Below the pieces are notes generated by a model. It was given only the letters and a program-made list of their open reading frames with translations. It had not been told where the DNA came from and searched no databases. A stretch of DNA of 59,971 nucleotides. It comes from a virus. Where the stretch lies: positions 1-59,971 of IMG/VR virus record IMGVR_UViG_3300025769_000114. One strand, given 5' to 3'. The translations under genes were made by a program, and so were the position numbers. This document shows positions 35,684 to 40,707 of the stretch, piece after piece (position 1 is the first letter of the stretch; each line of letters begins with the position of its first letter).

Positions 35684-35697
35684 GGGGCCGAAGCCCC
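35684..35697 (-). terminator. UUCG-tetraloop hairpin after the VWA gene
   Basis: GGGGC-UUCG-GCCCC followed by UUAA, overlapping the VWA gene stop codon. It has the same stem and loop as the hairpin at 37942-37955. With a short U-run, it may be a weak terminator or a 3'-end stabiliser. Confidence 0.55.
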
Positions 35698-37028
35698 TAG
35701 GTTACTTTGATGATTTCACCAAAAGGCTCACAGCCTCGCCACATAGGGTCGCGGTCAGTGGTTGCCCAGAACACCGGATAGTCAGGCATGGTGAAGTCGT
35801 GCCGTGCATTAGGCCCAACCTCGCCCCAGCCATCGGTGAAGTAGATCATCGCGCATGGTTCGATATCGTTGCGCTCAACATAGTTGAACGGTGGATTGAA
35901 CTCAGTACCGCCGAACTCAGGAATCTTGAGCGTTAGCTCTTCATGCCTGTCGAACTCCTCGACACCGCACACTACATCGTGGCAGTAAATGACCACAGTC
36001 TTGATAGGCTGCACCTCGTCAATGATGTCCTGCACATGCCCAGCATTCATATCCAACTCTTCCTGAGTCATGGAGTAGCTGACATCCTGCACCACAACCA
36101 ACTCACCGTTAGGCTCGCGGTTTTGCGTGGGCAGTATCAAGCCTTGCGATAGCAGCCGACGATTGGGTCGAGCATAGGTATGCTCAGACAAAACGAACTG
36201 ATCAAACGCAGACTTGAGGTGCTGGTGCCAAGGCACCGGATCACCAGAGAATCCGCTGATGATCTGGTCAACACTCGCGCCTCGACCAGAGCCACTGTCG
36301 CGGATCTTCTCATGGGCCTTAGCAGCCTCAAACACTTGCGAAGCGATCTCGCGCTCAGCTTCAGCCTTAGCGGCCTCAGACATACCCTGCCCATCGTCAC
36401 CAGCAGCCTCCCATACCTCGCCCCAAGGCGCGTCAGGATCAGCAGGGCCATCACCAGCAGCGGAGCCACTGTCGCCCTCACCGTCGCCCTCAGCGCCGCC
36501 AGAGCTAGGCTGGTCGCCGTCTTGGGTGCCGTTGTCGCCAGCCTGTGCCTGACCTTCGCCATCGTCGCACTGCTCGCCCTCGCCTTCATCGTTGCTGGGC
36601 TGGTCACCCTCAGACTGAGGCTGTGGCTTGCTGATAATTGTGTAGATCTGCTCAGCAGACATACCAATGTAGTCGGTGCTGTAGAGGCCACCGAAAACAT
36701 CGAACCCGTCACGCACTAGCGCGTAGTTGATTGCGTAGTCGGCAGCTTCGTTCCACAGCTTGTGGTCACGGTTACCCTTGCGTAGGTGATGGAACCCATC
36801 AACGTGCATCACCTCGTGGGCAATCACGGTCATGATGAACCGCACACCGTGTTCCTTTTCCTGCCCGACAACCCACTGCTCATTGAAGTGGATAGCCTTG
36901 CCATCGGTTGCCATCGTCGCAGTCTTGGTGCTGGGGATCAGCTCCAGTTGATATGCGCGGAAGGCAAAGTAGGGGAAGGTTTTCAGAAGGCGCTTGCGCG
37001 CCTCTAGAATGATCTGCATAGCATCCAT
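35697..37028 (-). CDS. VWA-domain putative metallopeptidase, DUF2201-like (443 aa)
   Basis: The start MDAMQIIL has GGAG 8 bases upstream; a longer frame to 37094 overlaps the previous gene. HEVMH at 71-75 with E94 is a zincin motif. The middle (about 140-240) is a Gly/Asp/Gln-rich acidic linker. The C-terminus is a VWA-like domain with MIDAS residues D315, S317, S319, T375 and D399. This joint architecture is the DUF2201 type and works with MoxR-like ATPases. The partner ATPase is two genes upstream. Phage N4-like genomes also carry AAA/VWA pairs, of unclear role. Confidence 0.78.
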   Translation of the reverse strand: MDAMQIILEARKRLLKTFPYFAFRAYQLELIPSTKTATMATDGKAIHFNEQWVVGQEKEHGVRFIMTVIAHEVMHVDGFHHLRKGNRDHKLWNEAADYAINYALVRDGFDVFGGLYSTDYIGMSAEQIYTIISKPQPQSEGDQPSNDEGEGEQCDDGEGQAQAGDNGTQDGDQPSSGGAEGDGEGDSGSAAGDGPADPDAPWGEVWEAAGDDGQGMSEAAKAEAEREIASQVFEAAKAHEKIRDSGSGRGASVDQIISGFSGDPVPWHQHLKSAFDQFVLSEHTYARPNRRLLSQGLILPTQNREPNGELVVVQDVSYSMTQEELDMNAGHVQDIIDEVQPIKTVVIYCHDVVCGVEEFDRHEELTLKIPEFGGTEFNPPFNYVERNDIEPCAMIYFTDGWGEVGPNARHDFTMPDYPVFWATTDRDPMWRGCEPFGEIIKVT

Positions 37029-37041
37029 AACTATTACTCCG

Positions 37042-37923
37042 TTAATCCCATAGGCCAGTGAGGTTATCCACAATGGACTTGGCAGTGTCAGCAACAGCCT
37101 TGCGCTCAGTCTTGGACTCGCGCAGCTTGGCTGGGTCTAGGTCTGCAAGCTTGGTCAGCAGGGCGTTGCCAGCTTGGGTCAGCTTGGGGTCACCCGTGAT
37201 GTTAAGGCTGGGCAGCACAGCAGCCAGTTCCTCAATCTTTTCGACAGTGTTGTCGGTGAACTTGCTCGCACGCTTGGCACCGTCAGCCTTGATGCCGTGA
37301 CGCTCTAAGCCGTCGATCAGAGCCTGTAAGGTATCGACTACACGCTCATGCACAGACTCAGCAGCAGCCTCGACGCGCTGAGTGATACGGGCCTCGGTGT
37401 CGGCCTTTATCTTGGCAATCTTTTCTGCGGGTAGGTTGACTCTGATATCGCCAGAATCAGGCATAGCGCGAAGCTCATAGCTGAACTGGTACTTGCTAAT
37501 GATGTACTCAGGCGAGGGGTAGTCGTTAATGTCGAAAGACAAGCCGGAGTTGATTGCAGCATCTTTAAGAATTTTAGGCCACTCGCGCACGACCTCGCGC
37601 TTTAGCTCTTCTGCATAGTCAACTTTCTTGATCCACTCAGCCTCAAAGGTTTCGATGTTCTCGACAGGCATAAGCCTGACCCCATCTTCCCAAGGTACGC
37701 TCAGCGGGTTGAGGACTGTATTGCGTAGTTGCCCAACAATCCTACTCAAAGCTTTGATTGGCGCGGCCTCTAAAAGCCGTCGTGTAACGGTGAAGCTTTT
37801 CGGGTTGCCCTGTTGGCGAGCGGCCACATCAGCAGACAGTTCTGCGTCTCTTGTTTTGTTAGCGAACTTGGTGATTGTTGCTGTAACCAGCATTGCGTTG
37901 TTTTGGATCTTATCCATAGTCAT
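37042..37923 (-). CDS. Helical protein of the MoxR-VWA cluster (293 aa)
   Basis: The start MTMDKIQ (37923) has GGAG just upstream; the frame continues to 38094 inside the ATPase gene without a site. The protein is mostly alpha-helical, with a central alpha/beta part (RLMPVENIETFEAEWIKKVD) and a basic C-terminal helix pair. It lies between the ATPase and VWA genes and is likely the third part of their complex. No specific family can be confirmed. Confidence 0.6.
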   Translation of the reverse strand: MTMDKIQNNAMLVTATITKFANKTRDAELSADVAARQQGNPKSFTVTRRLLEAAPIKALSRIVGQLRNTVLNPLSVPWEDGVRLMPVENIETFEAEWIKKVDYAEELKREVVREWPKILKDAAINSGLSFDINDYPSPEYIISKYQFSYELRAMPDSGDIRVNLPAEKIAKIKADTEARITQRVEAAAESVHERVVDTLQALIDGLERHGIKADGAKRASKFTDNTVEKIEELAAVLPSLNITGDPKLTQAGNALLTKLADLDPAKLRESKTERKAVADTAKSIVDNLTGLWD

Positions 37924-37941
37924 TGACTCCGAAATAGTAAA

Positions 37942-37955
37942 GGGGCCGAAGCCCC
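37942..37955 (-). terminator. UUCG-tetraloop hairpin between ATPase and helical-protein genes
   Basis: GGGGC-UUCG-GCCCC followed by UUUA on the minus strand, 8 bases beyond the ATPase stop and upstream of the next gene's ribosome site. It could be a partial terminator that sets stoichiometry, or mRNA end protection. Confidence 0.55.
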
Positions 37956-37963
37956 GTTGGGGT

Positions 37964-39055
37964 TTAGCGAGTGGCCTTGTGGGCCACATACTCAGGGGTT
38001 GATAGCAGGTCTGCATCGCGGCGCGTTGCCAGCGCCCAGAACACCTCGACCAGTTCTTCGTTGATGCGCTTGAGAACAACCACTGCATTGCCAAGGTTGT
38101 CAGTGGTCACCCGTGCAGCCAGCGCAGCGGTCACTGCATACTGAGTAGTGATCTCATTCGGCAGCGGCACGTTGTGCGGATCTGACAGAAACAAGTTGAT
38201 GTCTGGCAGGTTACGCATGGTGCGGACAAACGCCATAAACTCAGCGGCAGCGCCGAATCCTACGGCACCCTCAATGGCGATCTGCTCAAGATCAGCAGGT
38301 AAATCGTCACTGAGAATGTCAGACACTGATTGCCAGCCGCGAGGTGTAGCGATAGCCACCCTGTCTTTAGGTGTGCCGCCATCGGGGAACTCGTGAATGA
38401 GTCCGGCCTGATCACCTGATGCCTCACCGCGAAACTTCAGGAACGCAACCACAAGCGGGTTAGCGCCAGTGTCTGCAAGGTAGTCGCTGGTCTCAGCAGC
38501 GGACGGCACAACATCCAAGTGATACTTGAATCTTGTACTTACGGCAGCGTCGATGCGGCCAGACACACCAGCACCGTCATTGGGTCGATTAGATGCAGCG
38601 ATAACAAACCAGCCCTTGGGCAGGATGTAGTCGCCAAGCCGACCATCGTTTAGTAGCTGGTAAGACGCGAATTGCGCTGATTGAGTGCCAAGCATTAGCT
38701 CATCCATAAGCAAGCAGCCCTCTGGGCCGTCGCGCTCCACGTTGGGTAGCCATGATGGCGTAGACCATTCGGTTGTGGATGCTTCGCCGTCGCCGCTGAT
38801 GTACGGGACACCGCGAGTATCGACTGCATCCAACTGTGACAGGCGTACATCAATCAGGCCTATCGGTCTGTCGAGAGTCTTGGAAAGCTTTTCCATAGCC
38901 TGACGGACGATTGAGGACTTAGCTGCCGCGTAGATGCCCCACAGAAATATAGGCAACTGGCGCTTGTCGCTAGACAGTTGAGAGGTCGCATGTGCGAGTA
39001 TTAGTTGTGCAGCCTGTGAAGGGCTGACTTTCGGTGCGTTTATTGATTTAGTCAT
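37964..39055 (-). CDS. MoxR-like AAA+ ATPase with degenerate P-loop (363 aa)
   Basis: LWGIYAAAKSSIVRQ is at the Walker A place (G40 to S47), but both inner Gly are Ala (GIYAAAKS instead of GPPGxGKS). Walker B LLMDEL (D118, E119) and sensor-1 asparagine N156 in AASNRPND are intact, as is the arginine-containing GRIDAAVSTRF. This places it in the MoxR/CobS-like AAA+ group, chaperones that act with VWA proteins. Upstream 5' UTR begins at the cleavage site of the hammerhead at 39091-39151. Confidence 0.78.
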   Translation of the reverse strand: MTKSINAPKVSPSQAAQLILAHATSQLSSDKRQLPIFLWGIYAAAKSSIVRQAMEKLSKTLDRPIGLIDVRLSQLDAVDTRGVPYISGDGEASTTEWSTPSWLPNVERDGPEGCLLMDELMLGTQSAQFASYQLLNDGRLGDYILPKGWFVIAASNRPNDGAGVSGRIDAAVSTRFKYHLDVVPSAAETSDYLADTGANPLVVAFLKFRGEASGDQAGLIHEFPDGGTPKDRVAIATPRGWQSVSDILSDDLPADLEQIAIEGAVGFGAAAEFMAFVRTMRNLPDINLFLSDPHNVPLPNEITTQYAVTAALAARVTTDNLGNAVVVLKRINEELVEVFWALATRRDADLLSTPEYVAHKATR

Positions 39056-39090
39056 AACTAGTCAATGCTCCAAAGTTAAGGTTGTTGGTT

Positions 39091-39151
39091 ATCCAAGACC
39101 GCCCAGAGGGCGGTTTCACGCTGGTCACCAGCCAGCACTCGTCAGTTGGAT
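39091..39151 (-). ncRNA. Type I hammerhead ribozyme 1
   Basis: Minus-strand parts in order: stem I 5' strand AUCCAA (39146-39151), core CUGACGA (39139-39145), stem II GUGCUGG/CCAGCGU, core GAAA (39114-39117), stem III CCGCCC/GGGCGG with UCU loop (39099-39113), cleavage triplet GUC ending at 39097, and stem I 3' strand UUGGAU (39091-39096). Predicted cleavage lies between 39097 and 39096. The first two base pairs of stem II are G-U and U-G wobbles, which could slow cleavage. It sits between the 69-residue gene and the ATPase gene. Confidence 0.87.
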
Positions 39152-39360
39152 TAGGTCTCTAGGGTTGCAGCAGGGTCGAACTTCCATTGATCTGCAAGCT
39201 TGTAATAGAGGCGAGCAAACTGTTTGCGCTTTGCAATGTTGAACGATGGAGTCTCAACATGGGGGTTGCGGTCTCCATCCGCCTTTGCCAGCGCCTCAAG
39301 CAAATCCAATACCTCAGATCGGGCTTGTTCTTGCGGTGTGTGTCCGTACTTGTTTCTCAT
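39151..39360 (-). CDS. Hypothetical protein (69 aa) between the two ribozymes
   Basis: GGAG lies before the ATG. It is a helical basic protein (SEVLDLLEALAKAD, KRKQFARLYYKLADQWKF). Its TAA stop is immediately at the first base of hammerhead 1, so ribosomes ending here would cover the ribozyme's 5' strand. No family recognised. Confidence 0.58.
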   Translation of the reverse strand: MRNKYGHTPQEQARSEVLDLLEALAKADGDRNPHVETPSFNIAKRKQFARLYYKLADQWKFDPAATLET

Positions 39361-39385
39361 TGGTTATGCTCCGTAGTTGGAATGG

Positions 39386-39610
39386 TTAGTCAGAACCCCA
39401 AGGTCTGGCGTTCAGCTTTTTAAGTCGGGCACCAGACACCGTGGCATCCATGACGGCACCTGACCAAGCACGATTGGTTAGCTCTACCAAATGCTCGCCG
39501 TTGTGGCCTTTCCAGAATGCGGTGCCTGTTGTTACCCATGTCTGATGCTTGAGTCCTTTAACTGGCACAACCACATCGGTGTCCACTCTTATCTGTTGCT
39601 TTTCGTTCAT
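39386..39610 (-). CDS. Hypothetical protein (74 aa) downstream of hammerhead 2
   Basis: ATG is preceded by GAGGATAAAG. The mRNA made by hammerhead 2 cleavage would carry a 24-base 5' UTR with this site. The protein is beta-rich (VDTDVVVPVKGLKHQTWV) with a basic C-terminal region (GARLKKLNARPWG). Function unknown. Confidence 0.58.
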   Translation of the reverse strand: MNEKQQIRVDTDVVVPVKGLKHQTWVTTGTAFWKGHNGEHLVELTNRAWSGAVMDATVSGARLKKLNARPWGSD

Positions 39611-39626
39611 CTTTATCCTCAGTCGG

Positions 39627-39693
39627 TTTTCCAAGACCGTGCCTCCTACACGGTTTCACGCCACTAACCAAGCGGCACTCATCAGTTGGAAAA
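39627..39693 (-). ncRNA. Type I hammerhead ribozyme 2
   Basis: Minus-strand parts in order: stem I 5' strand UUUUCCAA (39686-39693), core CUGAUGA (39679-39685), stem II GUGCCGC/GUGGCGU, core GAAA (39654-39657), stem III CCGUG/CACGG with UAGGAGG loop (39637-39653), cleavage triplet GUC ending at 39635, and stem I 3' strand UUGGAAAA (39627-39634), a perfect 8-bp stem I. Compared with hammerhead 1, stems II and III differ by compensatory changes while the core is conserved. Predicted cut is between 39635 and 39634. Confidence 0.9.
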
Positions 39694-39933
39694 GGTTAGG
39701 TTATCGGTGAACAGCTTGAGTTCTGCGTGTTCCCAGCGGTCTAGCCAATCGACCTGAGCCTTAACCTGCGGCCAGCGCAGGGTGTGGCCTGTCTGCTTTT
39801 CGTAGTCGGCAAGTATCTGATCGGACAACTTGCCAATGCTCAGAATCCATTGCAGCCGTTCACGGTTGCTCAGGTTGGTGCGGTCTAGGTTCTGCTTGAT
39901 GTCATCAATGTCTGAGTTGTACTGCTCAATCAT
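39682..39933 (-). CDS. Hypothetical protein (83 aa) upstream of hammerhead 2
   Basis: The start overlaps the upstream stop. It is helical and acidic (DIDDIKQNLDRTNLSNRERL, QVDWLDRWEHAELKLF). Its TGA stop codon is inside the CUGAUGA core of hammerhead 2, so translation termination and ribozyme folding compete for the same bases. No family recognised. Confidence 0.58.
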   Translation of the reverse strand: MIEQYNSDIDDIKQNLDRTNLSNRERLQWILSIGKLSDQILADYEKQTGHTLRWPQVKAQVDWLDRWEHAELKLFTDNLTFSN

Positions 39934-40328
39934 TTGGTGAGTCCCTCGTTGATTGCATAGTCGGCAGCTTGGTTGTATTGACGCATCTGCATATGCGCCC
40001 GATGCGCTGCTTCGTGCTTTTCAATGAAATCAACGGCAGCGATCATCTGCTTGGTCGCGTTCTCAAGCTCGCGGCGAGGCATGTATGACTCAAGCTCTAA
40101 AGCTTTGTCGTGCCATATCTCCTCTTGACGCAGATGGATTCTCCGCTTGGCAGCCATTGCACTGGTGTCCTGATCTCCCGCCCACTCAGCGGAGTCAACG
40201 TGGAAATCGACACGGCGTTGTGCCTTCACCCAATCAACGACGGTGCGCTGATGCTTGGGGTTGATAGCCTTGATTGCGTTCGCAACGGCCAAGTAATCAT
40301 CTATTTTTGGTTGCTGTTGTTTGGTCAT
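39930..40328 (-). CDS. Hypothetical His-rich helical protein (132 aa)
   Basis: A strong GGAGG lies upstream, within the previous gene. The protein is helical, with AVDFIEKHEAAHRAHMQMRQ, a zincin-like arrangement of His and Glu (EAAHRAH) that may bind metal, and YNQAADYAINEGL near the end, a segment like NEAADYAINYAL of the VWA metallopeptidase at 35697. A metal-binding or truncated peptidase-like role is a guess. Confidence 0.55.
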   Translation of the reverse strand: MTKQQQPKIDDYLAVANAIKAINPKHQRTVVDWVKAQRRVDFHVDSAEWAGDQDTSAMAAKRRIHLRQEEIWHDKALELESYMPRRELENATKQMIAAVDFIEKHEAAHRAHMQMRQYNQAADYAINEGLTK

Positions 40329-40330
40329 GG

Positions 40331-40477
40331 CTAGAAGCCTCCCATTGAGATAGCGCCGTGGGCGCGGGTTGTTGTTTTGATCTTGGCAACGATTGCACGC
40401 TTGCGTTCGATCAGTCGGTTAAGGAATAGGCGGCGGCGATTGTGTCGCAGTACCCGTTGTCGTTCTTGGTGTGTCAT
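40331..40477 (-). CDS. Small highly basic protein (48 aa)
   Basis: GGAG is 7 bases before the ATG; the stop lies in the next gene's ribosome site. The sequence is rich in Arg/Lys (RQRVLRHNRRRLFLNRLIER) and ends GAISMGGF, so it probably binds nucleic acid. It is the first supported gene after a long structured leader. Confidence 0.55.
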   Translation of the reverse strand: MTHQERQRVLRHNRRRLFLNRLIERKRAIVAKIKTTTRAHGAISMGGF

Positions 40478-40707
40478 CACTCACTCCATAGTTCAGTTCA
40501 TCAATAGCCACTCAGTAAGTGGTCATTGGTGAGCCGAAGCTCTGCCGCATCCCAGCTCGTTGGGCATTGTCAGGATCAAAGGCCGACTGAGTAGCATTGC
40601 CCTGTACAGGGACGAGCCTCACCCAGCCGTTCAACCTCAGACCTTCACCAATGCTTTAGTTCTGGCTGCTGCGGCAAACAGCGCGTGTCTTGGTCTGCAT
40701 GTGTGAC

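Follow-up and report, generated by a model that had tools for sequence, protein, structure and literature searches.

Several hammerhead ribozymes associated with phages have been found to be active both in vitro and in E. coli, and the processing of polycistronic phage RNA has been proposed for them, in the portions of Perreault et al. (2011; PMC3088659) considered here. The same portions of that report describe a pseudoknot as necessary for fast cleavage in several hammerheads, and a mapped 5' end near the cleavage site of the HHphage ribozyme of haloviruses HF1 and HF2, which suggests activity in vivo. The function of phage hammerheads is an acknowledged open question (PMC6155905).

The window, which is the whole 59,971-base stretch of viral DNA that was analysed, contains exactly two type I hammerheads according to its sequence, its ORFs and a structural descriptor scan, and both lie on the minus strand. 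HH2 occupies positions 39627..39693, with stem I formed by 39693-39686 and 39634-39627, the catalytic core CUGAUGA at 39685-39679, stem II and its loop at 39678-39658, the GAA at 39657-39655, and stem III and its loop at 39654-39636. C17 is position 39635, and cleavage is predicted between 39635 and 39634. HH1, at 39091..39151, has the same organization: stem I at 39151-39146 and 39096-39091, the core CUGACGA at 39145-39139, stem II and its loop at 39138-39118, the GAA at 39117-39115, stem III and its loop at 39114-39098, and C17 at 39097, with predicted cleavage between 39097 and 39096. A pseudoknot of four base pairs is predicted in each copy, from the sequence and from covariation over the 201 clusters described below. 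In HH2 it joins the 3' strand AACC (39625..39628) to the loop II sequence GGUU (39669-39666), and in HH1 the 3' strand ACCA (39086..39089) to UGGU in loop II (39130-39127).

Both copies possess the CUGANGA and GAAA core strands, three stems in type I order, and a GUC cleavage triplet (of the NUH type) that closes stem III. Both also lie between phage genes of the same strand, in a family whose members are often repeated along one transcript, as in the locations reported in 2011. In core and topology they match Rfam families RF00163 (Hammerhead_1) and RF02275 (HH9), but their scores fall below the gathering thresholds: the best score for HH1 is 23.2 bits with RF00163 (cut-off 34), and for HH2 15.3 bits with RF02275 (cut-off 52). 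A scan at gathering score thus recovers neither, and neither can be placed in the curated sets of these families. Weak Rfam matches to other RNA families elsewhere in the window were judged to be due to chance.

The order of genes on the minus strand is a 132-aa gene, an 83-aa gene, HH2, a 74-aa gene, a 69-aa gene, HH1, a gene for a MoxR-like AAA ATPase, a gene for a protein of 320-350 aa, and a gene for a DUF2201/VWA protein. The 83-aa gene (39682..39933, ending in FSN) terminates in TTT TCC AAC TGA, with AAC TGA extending from the end of stem I through the first four bases of the HH2 core. Its TGA stop (39684-39682) therefore constitutes bases 2-4 of that core, and since the core reads C-UGA-UGA, a second stop follows in the same frame. 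The stop of the 69-aa gene (39151..39360) is a TAA (39153-39151), and stem I of HH1 opens with the final A of this codon. Both overlaps had been claimed in an earlier, sequence-only reading of this DNA, and the coordinates bear them out to the base. Downstream of the predicted cuts, the 74-aa gene (39386..39610) follows a 24-nt leader and the ATPase gene (37964..39055; phrog_1297) a 41-nt leader, both genes again being on the minus strand.

The three small ORFs have homologues in other loci recovered in the survey below. Homologues of the 83-aa gene are 83-87% identical in loci L120 and L126, with changes concentrated at third codon positions, and further homologues are present in L020 and L125. 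The 74-aa protein is identical in L122, where the DNA differs only at third positions, and the 69-aa protein has homologues at 35-56% identity that are found in other phages either directly after hammerheads or farther away. Judged by this pattern of conservation, all three are real genes. The ATPase, the 320-350 aa protein and the DUF2201/VWA protein form a set downstream of HH1 (35697-39055); the PHROGs name for the VWA family, "HNH endonuclease", is probably a misnomer. Just upstream of the minus-strand gene block, between 40700 and 40815, TGCCCATTGATTGTCGGTACG occurs twice about 80 nt apart and is possibly a regulatory repeat. The terminase encoded in the window shares 54-59% identity with its counterparts in Pelagibacter phages HTVC027P and HTVC023P and in phage 023Pt_psg01. 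With the structural descriptor, no hammerhead was detected in the first 50 kb of these nearest isolates by terminase (HTVC027P, 023Pt_psg01, DSL-LC04 and HTVC023P), and a BLAST search of isolate phages with the ribozyme itself gave no useful match.

Related loci were collected from IMG/VR with an exact pattern carrying the CCAA/TTGG stem I (at least 119 loci) and with two additional patterns carrying other stem I sequences (at least 120 and at least 99 loci). The structural descriptor was applied to 365 loci and identified 375 hammerheads; reading the same DNA (3.2 Mb) backwards gave none. Among bacterial genome contigs there were 20 pattern matches, none of which passed the descriptor. Clustering resulted in 201 non-redundant clusters, 191 of them with a callable upstream gene (gene calls being heuristic), and the position of each stop was expressed as the offset of its first base from the core C.

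Stops are strongly concentrated at the 5' edge of the ribozyme. In 94 of the 191 clusters the stop lies 6-10 nt ahead of the core (41 at -8, 24 at -7, 18 at -9, 9 at -10 and 2 at -6), and in 29 it is the core UGA itself (+1). The offsets -8, -7 and -9 alone comprise 43% of clusters, a peak that is sharper than any spacing based on start codons or Shine-Dalgarno sequences in the same loci. It is unchanged when the codon model is omitted or when stricter gene scores are required, and it is present in all three scan sets with their different stem I sequences. A stop at -10 to -6 is found at 76 of 151 hammerheads, versus 12 of 534 non-hammerhead CTGANGA sites in the same loci. More broadly, 147 of the 191 stops are between -18 and +20, and only 8 are deeper than the core UGA. 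An A-rich stretch at -8 to -6 was considered as a possible conserved UAA within the ribozyme motif, but it is mostly accounted for by the stop of the gene itself.

The expectation that relatives would share the overlap of stop and core seen at HH2 is thus borne out for docking in general, which is widespread, but not for the exact overlap, which varies. A ribozyme far from any stop does occur, as the nearest called stop is more than 30 nt away in 34 of the 201 clusters and a further 10 have no called gene, although some of these clusters probably represent overlooked small genes.

The reading frame of the upstream gene is also biased. Genes read in phase with the core UGA are in excess (82 clusters, versus 47 and 28 for the other two frames; p 6e-7), but only weakly so without the +1 class (p 0.018). 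In the remaining two frames, stops precede stem I or, in rare cases, fall within stem II. UGA is an invariant part of the core and must terminate any gene that enters in phase with it, so that a stop within the core needs no regulatory explanation.

The downstream side of the joint is similarly well defined. Loop II covaries with a segment beginning 1-2 nt past the 3' strand of stem I (examples are UGGU/ACCA and UAGUU/AACUA), and pairings of at least four bases between loop II and this 3' flank are found in 89 of 201 clusters, compared with a mean of 53 and a maximum of 68 in 500 shuffles. This covariation agrees with the pseudoknot as described in the portions of Perreault et al. (PMC3088659) considered here. 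Pairing of loop II with the 5' flank, on the side of the stop codon, does not exceed the level of the shuffles, and the stop is therefore not a pseudoknot strand. Just beyond the pseudoknot strand lies the Shine-Dalgarno sequence, at a median of 14 nt after a 5-bp stem I and most commonly in the window of 9-13 nt. The intergenic space consequently consists of a stop, a ribozyme and a ribosome-binding site with almost nothing between them.

A comparison of homologous loci indicates that docking is kept while its exact form changes. The core UGA serves as the stop of the 83-aa gene in L120, L126 and L020 as well as in the window, and in L122-L124 an unrelated gene also stops in the core UGA of HH2. 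In L125, the 83-aa orthologue is joined to another gene with no ribozyme following it, a one-base change having shifted its end. At the joint upstream of the MoxR-like ATPase, the stop is found at -8, -12 or +1 among homologues.

The same loci (L120, L122-L124, L125 and L126, compared with window positions 38800-40500) exhibit gene exchange or deletion exactly at hammerhead borders. The alignment of L120 with the window continues through HH2 and is taken up again at HH1, the intervening block being precisely what L120 is missing; this locus has the appearance of having arisen by recombination between HH2 and HH1. In L122, a block containing HH2 and the 74-aa gene is 97% identical to the window and the aligned segment from HH1 to the ATPase gene 88% identical, with a different gene upstream. 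Across all loci, of 63 pairs with good downstream homology, 56 lose their upstream homology at a point 4-17 nt ahead of the core, and among pairs with good upstream homology, 20 of 31 downstream breaks lie no more than about 40 nt past the cleavage site. This break-point signal is partly expected, given that the loci were picked by their ribozyme motif and that viable gene swaps fall at gene ends. Hammerheads that share a contig are always on the same strand and mostly one to a few genes apart, and they resemble each other more than hammerheads from different contigs do (0.71 versus 0.64, p 3e-13). One IMG/VR contig (L057, 6757-12021) contains six hammerheads with the same GTTCAA stem I, several of which have their called stop more than 100 nt upstream.

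Hammerheads of this kind are also present in isolated phages. The Bruynoghevirus genomes PaP4 (at 1725), LUZ24 (at 392) and PaP3 (at 424) each carry a pseudoknotted type I hammerhead at the stop of an ORF of about 27 aa, which is annotated as gp5 in LUZ24 and orf67 in PaP3 and was missed in the PaP4 record. By the submitters' own annotation, gp5 ends in a TGA at -8 of the hammerhead core and orf67 in a TAA at -9. About 89 related records of LUZ24/PaP3-type phages exist, and in these phages the docking rule can be tested on laboratory Pseudomonas aeruginosa. A hammerhead passing the descriptor was also found in the crAss-like phage cr272_1 (Crassvirales, from pig faeces; loci L331 and L372), where the nearest called upstream stop is 81 nt away.

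The observed anatomy, docking statistics, pseudoknot covariation and cassette swapping probably reflect a compact, exchangeable ribozyme module at gene junctions, which cuts polycistronic phage mRNA just after a stop codon and has no spacer between stop, ribozyme and ribosome-binding site. In such a module, the upstream stop would be followed directly by a pseudoknot-stabilised type I hammerhead and then by the Shine-Dalgarno sequence and start of the next gene. The ribozyme would fold in the long minus-strand transcript once its 3' half had been made and would cut about 50-60 nt past the stop. The upstream mRNA would keep its whole ORF and stop and gain a hairpin-rich 3' end with a 2',3'-cyclic phosphate, and the downstream mRNA would begin with a short 5'-OH leader and a ribosome-binding site. 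The ribozyme sequences themselves may serve as homologous joints for the exchange or deletion of neighboring gene cassettes. Cleavage in vivo and processing as the function of these elements are what we infer from this arrangement, and three proposals may account for the docking: a compact genome needs nothing between stop and ribozyme; a stop placed before the cut prevents nonstop mRNA and bars elongating ribosomes from running through; and the invariant core supplies a UGA to genes in that frame.

It is possible, though less probable, that docking is compaction without any functional consequence, with spacers deleted and a core that happens to hold a UGA. Both flanks of the ribozyme are compact, and phage genes are packed in general, many pairs in the control overlapping or sitting a few nt apart. 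However, ordinary gene pairs reach only 27% in their best 5-nt spacing window, so that the peak around -8, which is sharper than simple compaction elsewhere and than the start- and Shine-Dalgarno-based spacings of the same loci, may reflect an extra constraint. Docking also survives turnover of the stop codon, as seen in the TGA of LUZ24 and the TAA of PaP3. That the ribozymes are coincidental motifs and their overlap with stops trivial is extremely improbable: the failure to reach Rfam gathering scores would fit this explanation, but the clean control on reversed DNA, the pseudoknot covariation and the conservation across unrelated phages all contradict it. The remaining explanations assign a role to the ribosome. 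According to one, which is rather unlikely, translation promotes ribozyme folding by clearing competing upstream RNA, an effect of the kind proposed for group I introns, while the docked stop bars ribosomes from entering. The rarity of stops deeper than the core UGA and the over-representation of the frame with the in-phase UGA, as expected of a useful back-up stop, are consistent with this proposal, as is a thermodynamic model, calculated with no pseudoknot, in which 100 nt of RNA upstream disrupt HH1 stem I; this last prediction also counts against the preferred junction module. (Such folding gives a low stem I probability in most copies because the pseudoknot is outside the model, and its absolute values were not used.) Group I introns with an in-frame stop just after the 5' splice site offer a parallel, and are a precedent for either sign of ribosome effect (PMC3073962). 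Against it, a ribosome terminating at -8 would still lie over the core and would be fully excluded only by a stop placed around -18 or farther upstream; outside the +1 class there is only a weak frame bias; and the upstream sequence is already permissive, so that little chaperoning would be needed.

The sequence-only reading had proposed the opposite effect, namely that a terminating ribosome on the docked stop holds the 5' strand of the ribozyme, such that translation sets cleavage, mRNA processing and downstream expression. A ribosome with a stop codon in its A site covers about 13 nt downstream, as judged by toeprinting. The part of the proposal that concerns coverage is supported by modelling: the footprint would reach stem I and/or the core in the 147 clusters with stops between -18 and +20, and when the footprint is blocked in silico, stem I no longer forms, nor does stem II in the case of HH2. 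The folding of a phage T4 group I intron is likewise affected by translation and by a stop near the 5' splice site (PMC3073962). A dedicated switch, however, is unlikely. It would call for a conserved alternative structure or a conserved stop/core geometry, whereas the geometry varies (+1, -8 and -12 at homologous joints; -8 in LUZ24 and -9 in PaP3), no ribozyme follows the 83-aa orthologue of L125, and the upstream coding sequence interferes with ribozyme folding less than expected by chance, where an evolved competing structure would do the reverse. Folding into the ribozyme costs 1.9 kcal/mol when the native 90 nt precede it and 2.8 kcal/mol when these are codon-shuffled (n = 144, p 9e-7), and 1.7 versus 3.1 kcal/mol when the native sequence is compared with 3' ends of other ORFs from the same contigs at equal GC (n = 96, p 2e-7). 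The variable N of the core exhibits no selection for a termination context, since U, which would create a strong or tandem stop signal, is not enriched (14 of 29 core-stop clusters versus 78 of 172 others, p 0.84). Downstream starts are well past the cleavage site and have their own ribosome-binding sites, and no translational coupling is evident. Translation termination takes about seconds. Cleavage by pseudoknotted hammerheads proceeds at about 1 per min, or at more than 1.2 per min, in the measurements given in the portions of Perreault et al. considered here (PMC3088659), and translational control would therefore be graded. On these models, a terminating ribosome probably hinders ribozyme folding somewhat, as a graded side effect. 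It is correspondingly doubtful that stop-docked hammerheads are, phage-wide, translation-coupled processing sites at which the terminating ribosome would time ribozyme folding and tune the separation and life of mRNAs. If they were, the modulation of cleavage by translation would tie RNA processing to termination in a natural system.

The preferred reading, a compact and exchangeable junction module, provides a measurable rule, with about two thirds of stops located either at the 5' edge of the ribozyme or within its core and gene swapping at the same edge, from which specific tests of phage hammerhead function follow. It also places docked ribozymes in well-studied laboratory phages (LUZ24 and PaP3), where mRNA ends can be mapped. 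The ribozyme itself is of a known kind. The claim that its association with stop codons is undescribed held up, in that no link to stop codons was found in the literature on phage hammerheads searched on this point, and the docking rule appears to be new. The phage and prophage hammerheads of Perreault et al. (2011; PMC3088659) are the closest relatives: type I, II and III ribozymes located between phage genes, often several per transcript and with changing neighbors, which possess a pseudoknot between stems I and II and for which processing into single-gene mRNAs was proposed. The text of that report does not mention stop codons, and the portions considered here contain no docking statistic, frame bias or analysis of cassette breakpoints. 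The HF1/HF2 HHphage ribozyme is similarly located just upstream of the start of an early gene, but it has a variant core and belongs to an archaeal virus, and its relation to an upstream stop is not reported in those portions (PMC3088659). The promoter-stem-loop (PeSL) cassettes of T4-like phages (Arbiol 2010; Comeau 2014; both as summarized in PMC4503421) are also repeated intergenic regulatory motifs that mediate the shuffling of small genes, but in that summary they are promoter-terminator motifs and not ribozymes. Finally, the T4 td intron and other group I introns (PMC3073962) are catalytic RNAs with a stop at the 5' edge, in which the position of the ribosome influences folding. They splice within a gene and the effect of the ribosome on them is experimental, whereas the hammerheads in the window are known from sequence and would cleave between genes.
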